Shown: in pieces, positions 1 through 45,607 of the stretch | Position numbering within the stretch: the stretch's first letter is position 1 | Layout: each line of letters begins with the position of its first letter | DNA from: Syntrophobacteraceae bacterium | GTDB taxonomy: Bacteria > Desulfobacterota > Syntrophobacteria > Syntrophobacterales > Syntrophobacteraceae | Length of the DNA: 61,177 nucleotides | NCBI GenBank assembly: GCA_031292215.1 | Contig: JARLHO010000035.1 | Span: 1-61,177 of the forward strand | Reading direction: 5' to 3' | The notes under the pieces: model-generated | Databases searched by the model: none | Told to the model about the DNA's origin: nothing | What the model saw: the letters and a program-made list of their open reading frames with translations, nothing else | Made by a program: the position numbers and the translations under genes

Positions 1-105
1 TCCACGCCCCCTGCCCATCCGACCCACAACCCCGTGTTCCCAGCCTTCGACATTGAAAGCTTCAGGACCCCTTCTTCAGCTCTTAGAGGGCACATCCGGG
101 CTTCA

Positions 106-720
106 TCATTTTTTGAGGAAACAGTATATCGAATATCCAGCTTTTAACTGCATCCAATCGCTTATGCGAAGGAGCCCCGGGGCGGGTTCGTCTCGGTTCC
201 AGGGCTGTTCGAACAAAAGAGGCTCAAGGCCTGCCTCTTTTAGGTGGTTGCAGGTTTCCAGCCGGTCTTCGACGAAATAGTGAATGCCCATCCGATGGAG
301 GATGGCGAGCTTGGATTCGGGAGAGCCGGAGGCGATGACGGTTATCTTGGTTCGAGAAACGTCGGGGAGGATCGAAAAAATCCACTCGGAGATGGACTCC
401 GCGCCGCAGCGGGCGGTTACAAACCGGAGCGGGGCGGCCTTGGCAAGTTCGGTAAGCACTTCGGGGGCGCCCGGAATCGGCGGGATCTCCCGGGTGTGTT
501 CTTCATCGAGAGTCAGGTCTATCAGGTCGTCGATGATTTTTTTCTCCAGGCCCAGACAATCATAGAGGTTGTAGCAGAGCATGTCCTGCTTGGAAAGGCG
601 AGTTAAGCCGTATCTTTCGTGGGCAAGCCTTACAAAGACGGCCATGGTGTCGGCCACCACCCCGTCGATGTCGAAGGCGAGAACTCCGGGGTCTATGGGT
701 AGGACGTGCGGCCGGCTCAT
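106..720 (-). CDS. HAD-superfamily hydrolase
   Basis: A 204-residue protein of the haloacid dehalogenase fold. The N-terminus carries the nucleophile motif DIDGVVADT (near residues 17-25), and a conserved basic and acidic C-terminal part (FVTARC, then VEDR near residue 150) fits HAD motifs II-IV. Such proteins are usually phosphatases, but the substrate cannot be read from the sequence. The start ATG overlaps the stop of the upstream CoA-transferase gene by four bases (ATGA), so the two are probably translationally coupled. No gene follows downstream within the window. Family call is firm; specific role is unknown. Confidence 0.85.
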   Translation of the reverse strand: MSRPHVLPIDPGVLAFDIDGVVADTMAVFVRLAHERYGLTRLSKQDMLCYNLYDCLGLEKKIIDDLIDLTLDEEHTREIPPIPGAPEVLTELAKAAPLRFVTARCGAESISEWIFSILPDVSRTKITVIASGSPESKLAILHRMGIHYFVEDRLETCNHLKEAGLEPLLFEQPWNRDEPAPGLLRISDWMQLKAGYSIYCFLKK

Positions 721-2612
721 TTGTATTCTTCCGTACGGCAGGCCATAGCGGGTTCATCGAAGCGGAGCCATACCTCGTAGATGCCTTCCTCCAGTTTCGA
801 ATGGACAGCGTAGCCAAGACAGTGGAACACGGCGAGCATCGCCCGGTTGGCGGCCAGAACGTAAGCTACAAGTCCGGTGATTCCCTTGTCCTTGGCAATT
901 TCTGCGACATAGTGGACAAGGAAGGTGCCGATCCCCTTGTGCTGCCACCCGGAGCCGACCGCGACATCGATTTCGGCCATATTGGTCTTCTGATCCAGGA
1001 TGTAGCGGGCGATCCCCGCGATCTTCTCGGCGCCTATCTCCCCGGTAACGGCGATAACCGACATGACATGCTCGTAGTCGATATTGACCATCGCCTGGAC
1101 GTTTCTGTGCGGGAAGGCCTTCATCGCCGAAAGGAAACGAAAATAGATGTCTTCGAAAGGAAGGGTGTAGAAAAACTCCTGGAGCGCGCGCTCATCGGTT
1201 GGCTTTATCGGGCGGATAAAAAGCGGCATATTGGGCGGAAATACCTGGCTGGTCTCCCACTGCCCGGGATAGAGAGGCTCGTAGATGGGCGGAGCTATTT
1301 GATCTTCGTAGACGTAGTGAATACTTTTGGCCTCGTTCATCAACTGATCGCGAAAGCGTGGATGGGCAATGTTTATAAGGGCCAGCGCCCGTTCGCGGAT
1401 AGTTTTGCCGTGCAGGTAGGCAACGCCGAATTCGGTGGCGACATAGCCAACCGTGCTTCGAGGACTCACGACTCCCGCGCCGTCTGTCAGATGGCTCACA
1501 ATCCGGGATTTTCTGCCATCCGAAGTCGTGGAGGGCAACACGATAATTGTCTTTCCCCCTGGCGAGCTGGAAGCGGCGTGCATAAAGTCGACATAGCCCC
1601 CTATCCCGCTGTAGACCTTGTGGCCCATCGACTCGGCGCAAACCTGCCCGCTAAGATCTATTTCCAGCGCCGAGTTTATGGCGACCATGCGATAGTGCTG
1701 CCGAATGAGTTTGCGGTTATAGACGTATTCGACCGGGTAGAACTCCACTTCGGGATTGTTGTCTACAAAATCGTAGAGTTTCCTGCTGCCCATGCAGTAG
1801 GTGGCGACGATTTTGCCGTGGTTTAACGTTTTTTTAAGCCCTGTTACAGCGCCCGAATTGATAAGATGCAGGTGAGCATCGGTAAGGACCTCCGTATGGA
1901 TGCCCAGGTCCTTTTTGCCTTCGAGATAGATCATGACCCAGTTGGGGATTCTTCCCACTCCCGTCTGGATCGTGGAGCCGTCCTCGATGAGCGGAGATAT
2001 GTATCGGGCTATGCGTTCGGCGACCGCGCTTCTTTCCCGGAAGACGATCTCGGGCAGAGGCTCGTCATGTTCCATGGTGTAGTGAAACCGCGACGAGTGG
2101 ATAAAGGAGTCCCCAAGCGTTCTTGGCATTTCGCGATTAATCTGGGCGAAAACCACGCTTGCCGATTCGACGGCGCATTTGTCCATGCCAACCGATATTC
2201 CCATCGAGCAGAAACCGTGTTCGTCGGGGGGCGATACCTGGACCAGGGCGATATCGAACTTCCAGAGGGGGTCTTCCTGGAAAAGACGGGGTATGGAAGA
2301 AAAATAGATGGGGATGTAGTCGGCCAGCCCATCATTTACCGCATCCCTGGATTTTGGCCCGACAAAGAGGGTCTTCAGCCGGGCGTTTTCCTCAAGCGGC
2401 TTCCAGTCTTGGGGAAGCGAACCCATGGAAAGGTTTTGGACTATCTCGATATCGCGATGCCGGGGCAAAAGCCTTAGCAGGGCGCGCACCAGGTGCTGAG
2501 GCTCTCCGCAACCCGACCCGATATAGATCCGGAGTCCGTCGCGCAAGATCTGGCGCAGTATTTCGAGCTCGCTTACTTTGCGCTGTCGAACTTTGTCTTT
2601 GTATCCGTTCAT
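717..2612 (-). CDS. Acetyl-CoA hydrolase/4-hydroxybutyrate CoA-transferase-like protein fused to a C-terminal GNAT domain
   Basis: About 631 residues from the ATG at 2612, which has a GGAG 11 bases upstream; the reading frame stays open to 2690. Residues 1-450 are a class I CoA-transferase of the acetyl-CoA hydrolase/4-hydroxybutyrate CoA-transferase family: a glycine-rich IYIGSGCGEP start and the motif CAESMGHKVYSGIGG, whose glutamate sits where the catalytic CoA-ester glutamate lies in this family. From about residue 460 a GNAT acetyltransferase domain follows, with the acetyl-CoA pyrophosphate loop WQHKGIGTFL. The architecture suggests an acyl-CoA handling enzyme with an acetyltransferase module that may act on a protein or small molecule. 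Cotranscribed with the HAD gene. Acyl specificity is not determinable here. Confidence 0.85.
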   Translation of the reverse strand: MNGYKDKVRQRKVSELEILRQILRDGLRIYIGSGCGEPQHLVRALLRLLPRHRDIEIVQNLSMGSLPQDWKPLEENARLKTLFVGPKSRDAVNDGLADYIPIYFSSIPRLFQEDPLWKFDIALVQVSPPDEHGFCSMGISVGMDKCAVESASVVFAQINREMPRTLGDSFIHSSRFHYTMEHDEPLPEIVFRERSAVAERIARYISPLIEDGSTIQTGVGRIPNWVMIYLEGKKDLGIHTEVLTDAHLHLINSGAVTGLKKTLNHGKIVATYCMGSRKLYDFVDNNPEVEFYPVEYVYNRKLIRQHYRMVAINSALEIDLSGQVCAESMGHKVYSGIGGYVDFMHAASSSPGGKTIIVLPSTTSDGRKSRIVSHLTDGAGVVSPRSTVGYVATEFGVAYLHGKTIRERALALINIAHPRFRDQLMNEAKSIHYVYEDQIAPPIYEPLYPGQWETSQVFPPNMPLFIRPIKPTDERALQEFFYTLPFEDIYFRFLSAMKAFPHRNVQAMVNIDYEHVMSVIAVTGEIGAEKIAGIARYILDQKTNMAEIDVAVGSGWQHKGIGTFLVHYVAEIAKDKGITGLVAYVLAANRAMLAVFHCLGYAVHSKLEEGIYEVWLRFDEPAMACRTEEYK

Positions 2613-37338: not shown

Positions 37339-37484
37339 GTGCGCTAAACCTCGACCCTGTGCAAACTGCTGTAATCGTTATTGACCTGCAGAAAGGTATC
37401 GTGGGTCGCCAATGCGCTCACTATTCGCACCGAACAGGTTATTTCGGCCTTCGCTTAAGTTTTGGACGGGATTTACAGGATTAG
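37335..37484 (+). pseudogene. Truncated isochorismatase-like gene
   Basis: An ATG overlapping the lpxB stop (ATGA) opens a 49-residue frame: LDPVQTAVIVIDLQKGIVGRQ is the conserved N-terminus of isochorismatase-family hydrolases, including the catalytic Asp. After about 25-30 residues the match is lost, and the frame runs into the repeat array and stops. The remaining ~150 residues of the family are absent. It looks like a gene cut off by the repeat block. Confidence 0.7.
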
Positions 37485-37936
37485 TATTAGGGGAATAAAG
37501 AACCGGCGGCTTGGAAGGAATGGGGCGCCTGGAATTAAAAAATCCTGTAAACCCTGTAAATCCTGTCCAAGTCTTTTGTTTTATGGGGGCGGCACGGATA
37601 AGGCAAAACACTTGGACAGGATTAACAGGATTAGTATTAAGGGCCGGCGCGATCCTGAATCGCAGCGAGTAAAAAAACAGGTGAGGTTTTAGCGGCTTGG
37701 AAGGAATGGGGCGCCTGGAATTAAAAAATCCTGTAAACCCTGTAAATCCTGTCCACGTCTTTTGTTTTATGGGGGCGGCACGGATAAGGCAAAACACTTG
37801 GACAGGATTAACAGGATTAACAGGATTAGTATTAAGGGTCGGCGCGATCCTGAATCGCAGCGAGTAAAAAACAGGTGAGGTTTGAGCGGCTTGGAAGGAA
37901 TGGGGGGTACGGGGAATAAAAAATCCTGTAAATTAT
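37452..37936. repeat. Tandem repeat of about 186-194 bp with internal inverted repeats
   Basis: The phrase TTGGAAGGAATGGGG begins at 37511, 37697 and 37891, giving offsets of 186 and 194 bases. Each full unit carries CCTGTAAATCCTGTCCA(A/C)GTCTTTTG, then CACTTGGACAGGATTAACAGG, which can fold as a long hairpin, and a GGGGGCGGCACGGATAAGGC core. About 2.3 copies are present and the last is truncated. Similar CCTGTAAATCCTGTCC repeats are widespread in bacteria. The minus-strand open frame here is repeat-derived. Confidence 0.85.
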
Positions 37937-39256: not shown

Positions 39257-39650
39257 GGAACCGGAGTAGGGCGGATGATCGCCGGTCGCCTTTAACGGCG
39301 GCGGGAGGAAAGTCCGGGCTCCACAGGGCAAGGTGCTGGGTAACTCCCAGTCTCGGCGACGAGGAGGAAAGCGCAACAGAAAGCAGACCGCCTCTTGGCT
39401 CTTTGCGCAAGGGGTAAGGGTGAAAGGGTGAGGTAAGAGCTCACCGGTCCCGGTGGCGACATCGGGAGCCAGGCAAACCCCACTTGGAGCAAGACCGAAT
39501 AGGAGAGCGTTCGAGGGCTGCCCGCCCGATGCTCTCGGGTTGGTCGCTTGATCCCGTCGGTAACGGCGGGGCTAGAGGAATGATCATCCCCTGGCCGCCT
39601 TCGGGCGTTCGGGGAACAGAACCCGGCTTATGCCCTGCTCCGGTTCTTTT
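39257..39650 (+). ncRNA. rnpB: RNase P RNA, bacterial type A
   Basis: The catalytic core is clear: GAGGAAAGTCCGGGCTCC, GGTAAGGGTGAAAGGGTGAGG, AGAGCTCACCG, and ACAGAACCCGGCTTATG near the 3' end. P1 closes the molecule: GAACCGGAGTAGGGC (39258-39272) pairs with GCCCTGCTCCGGTTC (39632-39646). A T-rich tail follows. RNase P matures the 5' ends of tRNAs. Ends are set by P1 and could shift by a few bases. Confidence 0.95.
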
Positions 39651-42685: not shown

Positions 42686-42814
42686 GCGCGCGCTCCTTCT
42701 TTAGCGATAGGTTAAAGTGTCCAGAATATATTTACGGTCGGCTGCCGGGGCAAGGCCGTAGAGAAAAGAACTTTGGATCGACTTTTCTCATGATCCATGG
42801 AAGGGAGTTCGAGG

Positions 42815-43021
42815 ATGGTGATATGTCATTGTTTCGGCTACACCGCGGCCGATATAGAGCGGGATGTGGTGGCAAACACTAAATCCACGATTTTCGATAA
42901 AATTATCAGCGAAAAAAAGTCCGGCGGCTGTCAGTGCGCCGCGTTAAACCCCACGGGCCGCTGATGCCTTGGCGATGTCCGCCGGTTGGTGGATGAAGTC
43001 ATGAAAAGGCAGTTAGGCTAA
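42815..43021 (+). CDS. Candidate selenoprotein with a CopZ N-terminal/BFD-like iron-sulfur domain (in-frame TGA at codon 50)
   Basis: Read as a normal gene it stops after 49 residues, but the same frame continues 18 more codons across TGA 42962-42964 to TAA. The text is MVICHCFGYTAADI..., then GGCQCAALNPTGR-TGA-CLGDVRRLVD. This follows the small [2Fe-2S] CopZ N-terminal domain, with CxC near the start, CxC in the middle and a C-C pair in NPxGxCCLG. The TGA replaces the first cysteine of that pair, giving a U-C redox pair. Downstream of the TGA, after 11 bases, UGUCCGCC-GGUU-GGUGGAUG forms an eight-pair hairpin with a guanine-leading loop, fitting a bacterial SECIS. The ribosome site is GGAG. 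Sec machinery is not in the window. Confidence 0.75.
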
Positions 43022-43954: not shown

Positions 43955-45607
43955 ATGGCGGAAAAAAAGTCGGAAAGAGAGCAAAATTCTCTTTGGAGCG
44001 CCGAGGTGGAGAAAAACCTGAGGGTTGCCTTCGATTCGCTTCCAAACGCTGTCCCGGTGATGCTCTTTACCGAGAAGGGCGGAAGTGAAGTCCTAAACAG
44101 TGCGGCGCAGGATCTGCTAAGAGGTTTTGCCAAAATATCCAAGAAGGTGGTGTTAAAAGAGTTCGACGTAAAGAGCGAAGAGGCAAGGGAGCGGAATGTG
44201 ACCAGCGCCCCGACGCTAATCTTTGACCCGGACAGGTATGCGATAAGGTATCTTGGCGTTCCCTACGGTGAGGAGGGCAGAACGCTTGTCGGAATGATTC
44301 TACTTATCGGGTATCGCACGGGCAATATGAGCGAGCCGTCGCTAAAGGTCTTAAAAAGGATAAATTCGAGAAGGGAAGTGAAGGTATTTGTCAGCCCGAC
44401 CTGTCCCTATTGTCCGGAGCAGGCGATAAACGCGGTAAAGTGCGCCATCGAGAGGCCCGATATCGTAGCGCTGGAAATAGTCGATATCCAGTCCAACCAG
44501 GAGATGGCCAATCGCTATTCGGCGTTTAGCGTTCCGCAAACCTTTGCAAACGACATTCTAATCGCTCACGGGGCGCAGCCGGAAGAACTTTTTGCCGTCT
44601 CTCTTGAAAAGCTCGAACAGCAGACCGTCTTCATCCCGGAAACCGACGCGGAGGTAATCGAAACCGATGTGGTGATCGTAGGAGGGGGGCCGGCGGGACT
44701 TGCCGCAGGGATTTACACGGTTCGAAGCGGGCTAAGGACAGCGATTATCGAGCGGGGAGCACTCGGGGGGCAGGTGGCCACAACCCCGGTTGTGGAGAAC
44801 TATCCGGGGTTTGCAAGGGTGCCGGGAAAAACGCTGGTCGATATCCTTACAAGCCATGCCCTGGAGTATGTCCAGATATTCCAGGGAGAGGAAGTGGGGG
44901 TTATTCAGCCCGGTCCGCCGCTGGAGGTGAGGACAGGGAGGAGAAAATTTGTGGCAAGGGCCCTCATACTTGCTACGGGCGCCAACTACAAGAAGCTGGG
45001 AGTGGCCGGCGAGATAAATTTCATGGGGCGCGGGGTAAGCTACTGCGCGACCTGTGACGGCCCGTTATTTAAAGACCGCAAGGTCATCGTGGTCGGCGGG
45101 GGGAACTCGGCTGTGACCGAGGCGCTCCATCTGCACAACATCGGGGTGCAGGTCGTAATGGCGCATAGACGAAACAGCCTGAGGGCCCAGGATCATCTGG
45201 CCAAAAATATCTTTTCAAACAACATCGAGGTGCTCTGGGATACCGAGGTCGTGGAGATACGGGGTAAGGAAAAGGTCGAAGAGGTGGTGTTGCGAAATCA
45301 CCGGACCGGGGAGGATTACCCGTACCCGGTGCAGGGGGTCTTTGTGGCGATCGGCTATGAGCCCTCGGTTGGTCTGGCGAAGGGGCTGGGTGTCGAACTC
45401 TCGCCGGAGGGTTTTATAAAGCATGACTCCCATCATAGGACCAACGTTTCCGGGGTCTATTCGGCCGGGGACGTGGAAGGGGGCTATAAGCAGATCGTAA
45501 CGGCGATGGGGCAGGGGGCCGAGGCGGCCCTTGCGGTGTATGAAGATCTTGCCCATCCGTATTGGACCACCGATCAAGAGAAGCAAAATAGCGTGGCGAG
45601 GATGTAG
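43955..45607 (+). CDS. AhpF-like NAD(P)H disulfide reductase with N-terminal thioredoxin folds
   Basis: A 550-residue protein. Residues 1-~220 carry two thioredoxin/PDO-type folds. The second has the CPYC redox site (VSPTCPYCPEQ) and FSVPQTF; the first has lost the CxxC. Residues ~235-550 form a thioredoxin-reductase-like flavoprotein: VVIVGGGPAGLAAGIY, GGQVATTPVVENYPG, the catalytic CATC pair (SYCATCDGPLF), VVGGGNSAV, and a GVYSAGDVEGG FAD motif. This is the AhpF layout, which reduces AhpC or another peroxiredoxin. No ahpC lies nearby. The ribosome site is GGGAGAGG. A terminator follows. Confidence 0.9.
   Translation: MAEKKSEREQNSLWSAEVEKNLRVAFDSLPNAVPVMLFTEKGGSEVLNSAAQDLLRGFAKISKKVVLKEFDVKSEEARERNVTSAPTLIFDPDRYAIRYLGVPYGEEGRTLVGMILLIGYRTGNMSEPSLKVLKRINSRREVKVFVSPTCPYCPEQAINAVKCAIERPDIVALEIVDIQSNQEMANRYSAFSVPQTFANDILIAHGAQPEELFAVSLEKLEQQTVFIPETDAEVIETDVVIVGGGPAGLAAGIYTVRSGLRTAIIERGALGGQVATTPVVENYPGFARVPGKTLVDILTSHALEYVQIFQGEEVGVIQPGPPLEVRTGRRKFVARALILATGANYKKLGVAGEINFMGRGVSYCATCDGPLFKDRKVIVVGGGNSAVTEALHLHNIGVQVVMAHRRNSLRAQDHLAKNIFSNNIEVLWDTEVVEIRGKEKVEEVVLRNHRTGEDYPYPVQGVFVAIGYEPSVGLAKGLGVELSPEGFIKHDSHHRTNVSGVYSAGDVEGGYKQIVTAMGQGAEAALAVYEDLAHPYWTTDQEKQNSVARM

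Follow-up and report, generated by a model that had tools for sequence, protein, structure and literature searches.

Probable selenocysteine decoding of an in-frame TGA in a gene for a stand-alone CopZ N-terminal/BFD-like domain of a Syntrophobacteraceae bacterium

The window analyzed here is the whole 61,177 nucleotide stretch of contig JARLHO010000035.1 from a Syntrophobacteraceae bacterium (assembly GCA_031292215.1). It contains a small gene whose in-frame TGA is almost certainly read as selenocysteine (Sec), which results in a short iron-sulfur-type protein. That this is a selenoprotein gene is very strongly supported; as to what the product does, we infer only [2Fe-2S] redox chemistry or the handling of soft metals.

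The gene and its product

The open reading frame at positions 42815–43021 of the + strand displays a single in-frame TGA (42962–42964), and both the frame and the TGA are exactly where an earlier sequence-only reading of this DNA had placed them. With the TGA translated as Sec the product has a chain length of 68 aa, MVICHCFGYTAADIERDVVANTKSTIFDKIISEKKSGGCQCAALNPTGR-U-CLGDVRRLVDEVMKRQLG, with Sec at position 50 (U50), and it displays the motif C4-x-C6 … C39-x-C41 … NPTGR-U50-C51. Ordinary gene calling truncates the gene at the TGA. The features of the locus are as follows.

42799..42814, + strand: purine-rich, RBS-like stretch that includes GGAAGGGAG, directly 5′ of the ATG at 42815 (putative, from reading the sequence)
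42815..43021, + strand: selenoprotein gene, stand-alone CopZ N-terminal/BFD-like [2Fe-2S] domain (frame; Fer2_BFD E 0.0022; CopZ_Nterm_CC 49.7 bits; homologues)
42962..42964, + strand: Sec UGA codon, U50 (TGA at the same codon in 27/27 homologues inspected by column)
42976..42995, + strand: SECIS hairpin UGUCCGCC-GGUU-GGUGGAUG (folding, covariation, published bacterial SECIS constraints)
42978–42983 and 42988–42993, + strand: six-pair conserved core UCCGCC/GGUGGA of the hairpin, with the loop at 42984–42987
43019–43021, + strand: stop codon TAA of the Sec gene

The Sec gene stands alone between two minus-strand open reading frames, a 67-codon ORF and a flavin reductase. Approximately 0.9 kb 3′ of it, at window positions 43955–45607, is an AhpF-like fusion of a thioredoxin-like sequence (CPYC) with a pyridine-nucleotide-disulfide reductase. 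Elsewhere in the window, a bacterial RNase P RNA of class A (321.6 bits) is found at positions 39263–39645, where it is overlapped by several spurious ORFs. Positions 37462–37900 display a 128-nt direct repeat in two copies, 186 nt apart and with 99% identity. The unit is built of ACAGGATTAACAGGATT-type intergenic repeats, and the ORFs called over this region look spurious.

Conservation of the TGA codon

A search of 148 relatives shows homologues with one internal TGA, in genomes that range from congeneric ones to others of the phylum. In a phylum-wide draw of 395 genomes, 58 had a match at E <= 1e-9. Exactly one in-frame TGA is present in 57 of the 58 matches, the remaining one is a long Cys form without a TGA, and neither TAA nor TAG replaces the TGA in any of the 58.

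Twenty-seven sequences, the window's own included, were extracted and compared by column. All of them have the TGA at one and the same codon, with Cys as the next residue. Conservation continues beyond the TGA, i.e. at C51 (27/27), L52 (23/27), V55 (26/27) and V59 (25/27), and also at D54. Cys relatives from other groups (Deltaproteobacteria, Neomarinimicrobiota, Acidobacteria and others) display GRCC at the Sec site. A stand-alone form with Cys at the Sec codon has not been found in the genomes searched.

A second copy in a same-genus genome (G009:C1, L055 2206–2397) was considered as a candidate for Sec encoded by UAG and was rejected, as its TAG is elsewhere in the frame. This copy is degenerate: the Sec codon is replaced by Arg, Cys39 is lost and the TAG is found further on. 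A more divergent BFD-like relative with TGA-Cys (NPRRR-U-C), from the same family of genomes (G017, L087 1501–1662, minus strand), escaped the direct protein search.

The SECIS hairpin

Eleven bases separate the TGA from the hairpin, and the distance from the UGA to the loop is 19 bases. In RNA folding the structure of minimum free energy is this hairpin, at −14.9 kcal/mol for 42 nt (z = −2.07); as good a fold is seen in 6 of 200 shuffles, and the 27-nt core alone has −10.5 kcal/mol. The bacterial SECIS model has a loop of 3–9 nt, a stem of 4–16 bp, a G in the first two loop positions, a distance of 16–37 nt from UGA to loop and a minimum free energy <= −7.5 kcal/mol (PMC13188914). With a 4-nt loop (GGUU), a stem of 6–7 bp, the 19-nt distance and the energy of the core, the hairpin is within all of these limits. 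Rfam at gathering thresholds gave no match over it. The fold alone is only moderately above chance, and it is conservation that raises the case for a real hairpin and a real Sec TGA beyond chance.

In the alignment of the 27 sequences 91.5% of the cells in the hairpin are paired, and every slid register is far worse. The loop-closing pair is changed on both sides, from C-G to A-U, in five sequences (shuffled mean 1.5, with 0 of 500 shuffles as high). Such double changes are confined to this one pair of the helix, and the same pair is broken in 5 of the 27 sequences. On the A side an amino acid codon has changed (to AAG or AGG), on the U side a third position (to GTT or ATT), which amounts to compensation at the RNA level. 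The hairpin also displays a synonymous freeze, i.e. Val55 is GTC in 25/26, Arg56 is CGC in 21/21 and Val59 is GTG in 24/25; most conserved codons outside of the hairpin vary freely at the third position (e.g. Gly37, Ile30 and Leu52).

Selenium machinery and the decoding of the TGA

The same genome encodes SelA (E 6e-156), SelB (361.9 bits, cut-off 242), SelD (384 bits) and a tRNA-Sec (74 bits, gathering score 47) with the anticodon TCA according to ARAGORN. SelA is present in all 26 genomes that have the Sec form; its co-occurrence carries little weight, however, because 139 of the 148 relatives have SelA. The SelD gene of this genome (L059, G000:C53:69730–70644) has one in-frame TGA and is itself probably a selenoprotein gene.

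Decoding of the UGA at 42962–42964 as selenocysteine by SelB with Sec-tRNA(UCA) is very strongly supported, and it would be directed by the hairpin within the coding sequence, which starts 11–13 bases 3′ of the UGA. Alternatively, the TGA may be a true stop or the locus a decayed copy, with a 49-residue peptide as the product. The standard gene call does end at the TGA, and the degenerate L055 copy shows that decay has occurred in one relative. However, a pseudogene or a true stop would not give exactly one TGA in 57 of 58 phylum matches, a Cys51 kept past the TGA in 27 of 27 sequences and a hairpin constrained at the RNA level. This reading is very improbable and for practical purposes is already refuted. 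Reassignment of UGA, or near-cognate read-through as Trp or Cys, has the open frame as the one point in its favor within the genome. Against it are the complete Sec system with its TCA anticodon, the homologue column, which shows Cys and not Trp, and the other genes of the window, whose products are of ordinary full length when translated with the standard bacterial code. We regard such reassignment as extremely improbable.

Selenocysteine insertion, on the other hand, agrees with what the sequence-only reading had proposed. Its claim of read-through into homologous sequence is borne out by the conservation of the TGA and of the sequence beyond it, and homologues do run past the TGA site, with CC or UC. 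The hairpin that it described, 11 bases after the TGA with 19 bases from UGA to loop and G first in the loop, fits the bacterial model and is the structure that folding returns. The genes that it would have the genome contain (selA, selB, selC and selD) are all present, selC as the gene for tRNA-Sec(UCA).

Relation to known families

Reviews list a “(2Fe-2S)-binding protein, copper chaperone CopZ family, form 1”, cd10141 (PMC9312934, PMC13188914). One review gives the form 1 motif as GxUC; the family is credited to a 2008 GOS survey, and a form 2 has the motif CU (PMC9312934, PMC13188914). The main text of the 2008 GOS paper does not mention CopZ, and the credit is the reviews' own. Form 1 is of the same domain family and has Sec at the same place, and GRUC in the window protein fits GxUC; the reviews give form 1 a table row only, with WP_245779778.1 as the listed example, and the likeness is one of motif and domain family. 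The CopZ-like Fer2_BFD domain of form 1 is also found here (NF047645, E 4e-13; Fer2_BFD, E 0.002). It is well supported that the Sec gene adds a member to an already listed selenoprotein family and does not define a new one.

The best NCBIfam match is CopZ_Nterm_CC (NF047645, putative iron-sulfur cluster-binding metallochaperone), which scores 49.7 bits (cut-off 100) over residues 2–55. This model spans 138 positions, and the window protein lacks its N-terminal Cys-rich region; the C-terminal half aligns, and the members of the family have CC compared with UC here. CopZ_Nterm_CU (NF045877, Csac_0668 family (seleno)protein, i.e. form 2) represents the same domain family in a Sec form, but its motif is CU instead of UC, it is longer than the window protein, and its cut-off of 190 is not reached (18 bits). 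Pfam Fer2_BFD aligns over residues 2–60 with 18.7 bits, below the gathering score of 26. The stand-alone form thus reaches neither the NCBIfam cut-offs nor the Pfam gathering score.

Fold, candidate cluster ligands and the place of Sec

A profile of 16 sequences found a lone PDB entry, 2HU9, the N-terminal domain of Archaeoglobus fulgidus CopZ. In the profile alignment C4, C6, C41, U50 and C51 pair with Cys75, 77, 109, 118 and 119 of 2HU9. The [2Fe-2S] cluster of 2HU9 is presumably held by Cys75, 77, 109 and 119. Because U50 pairs with Cys118 and the presumed ligand is Cys119, U50 would be a non-ligand beside the ligand C51; judged from this alignment, Sec probably does not bind the cluster but adjoins a presumed ligand. 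C4, C6, C41 and C51 are invariant in the 16-sequence alignment and are the candidate ligands. C39 is near-invariant in the Sec form (26/27, compared with 27/27 for C41) and would be an extra residue outside of the ligand set if the presumed ligands hold. The A. fulgidus domain differs in having Cys at position 118, in its Zn-binding part, and in the lack of the extra C39. According to the literature, its parent protein also carries an HMA domain.

The AlphaFold model has a pLDDT of 96.4. Foldseek against the PDB is weak for this protein (best E-value 1.2), and Pseudomonas Bfd [2Fe-2S] ferredoxins come out on top in the structural comparison (Z about 6 to 6.5, 52–53 residues, rmsd 2.2–2.4). 2HU9 is absent from the fold-search matches, which says nothing either way. 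Bfd, the bacterioferritin-associated ferredoxin (4E6K, 6E6R), may be alike in fold, with an identity of only 17–23%. It has a CxC at the N-terminus and is not known to have a vicinal CC/UC; the window protein for its part shows no sign of a link to bacterioferritin.

The sequence-only reading described the gene as a hidden selenoprotein in which Sec takes the place of a cluster cysteine, which is correct in part. Sec does stand where homologues have Cys (CC), but it aligns with Cys118 and not with the presumed ligand Cys119, so that the mention of a cluster cysteine is probably wrong. The gene is hidden in that standard gene calling cuts it; the family, however, is in the reviews with its GxUC motif.

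Gene neighborhood and possible function

No conserved neighbor of the Sec form was found in 28 loci from relatives; outside of close relatives no gene recurs as a partner. Nearby genes in some of the Sec-form loci encode a universal stress protein or a metal-resistance protein, with no consistent pattern. The long Cys relatives show a different picture: MerT-like genes adjoin three of them (L005, L007 and L034), a Cu/Zn efflux permease is near another (L008), and a flavoprotein of the MerA superfamily, whose best NCBIfam score is to dihydrolipoyl dehydrogenase and below cut-off, is near L003. At the L034 locus (25–2055, minus strand) the CopZ N-terminal CC domain and a mercuric reductase, MerA (568 bits), are parts of one open frame. 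For Archaeoglobus CopZ, the Fe-S domain has been described as the part that mediates the reduction of Cu(II) (PMC7558416). Any metal role for the Sec form is a transfer from distant Cys relatives, because the Sec form has no conserved neighbor.

Given the mer/metal neighbors of the Cys relatives and the Cu(II) reduction by the CopZ domain, our best guess is that the Sec protein may be a small redox protein of the [2Fe-2S] type, in which a reactive selenol adjoins the cluster and which acts on soft metals or thiols. By homology and from the model, the product would be a stand-alone BFD/CopZ N-terminal domain that binds one [2Fe-2S] cluster via C4, C6, C41 and C51. With less certainty, U50 beside the ligand C51, together with the extra C39, may form a redox-active or soft-metal-binding selenol/thiol site by the cluster. 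As a small cytosolic redox protein it might pass electrons to, or capture, soft metals or oxidized thiols, in a manner comparable to Archaeoglobus CopZ. It would act separately and is probably monocistronic, with no dedicated partner gene adjoining.

Two departures from this scheme are to be considered. U50 might itself be a [2Fe-2S] ligand through an Fe-Se bond, leaving C51 or C39 free. U50 and C51 are adjacent, the second known form has CU, so that apparently either vicinal member can be Sec, and C39 is conserved about as well as C41; the pairing of U50 with Cys118 and of C51 with the presumed ligand Cys119 opposes this, and we hold direct ligation to be quite unlikely. The protein might instead be a trafficking chaperone for mercury, organometals or copper and not an electron carrier, with Sec giving soft-metal affinity. 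This is possible though doubtful. It draws on the MerT-like neighbors, the MerA fusion, the MerA-superfamily flavoprotein that precedes the L003 relative, the efflux permease and the NCBIfam name of the Cys family (metallochaperone), but such genes do not consistently adjoin the Sec form and the protein has no HMA domain. Sec read-through yielding a [2Fe-2S] domain with a selenol/thiol site is the best explanation overall and is considered probable. A more specific proposal is rather unlikely: that the U50 selenol flanks or even ligates the cluster and, by way of selenium, tunes the protein as an Fe-S electron donor or a reductase of soft metals (Hg/Cu). It would then be, in a stand-alone Sec version, the equivalent of the Fe-S domain found in Cys forms close to mercury-resistance genes.

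Significance

Since the gene is cut by standard calling and scores below the NCBIfam and Pfam thresholds, dozens of genomes of the phylum probably carry it with a wrong annotation. The locus represents a clear example of Sec adjacent to a predicted [2Fe-2S] cluster. That the stand-alone form is without a Cys version in the genomes searched suggests that selenium matters to the chemistry of this protein.
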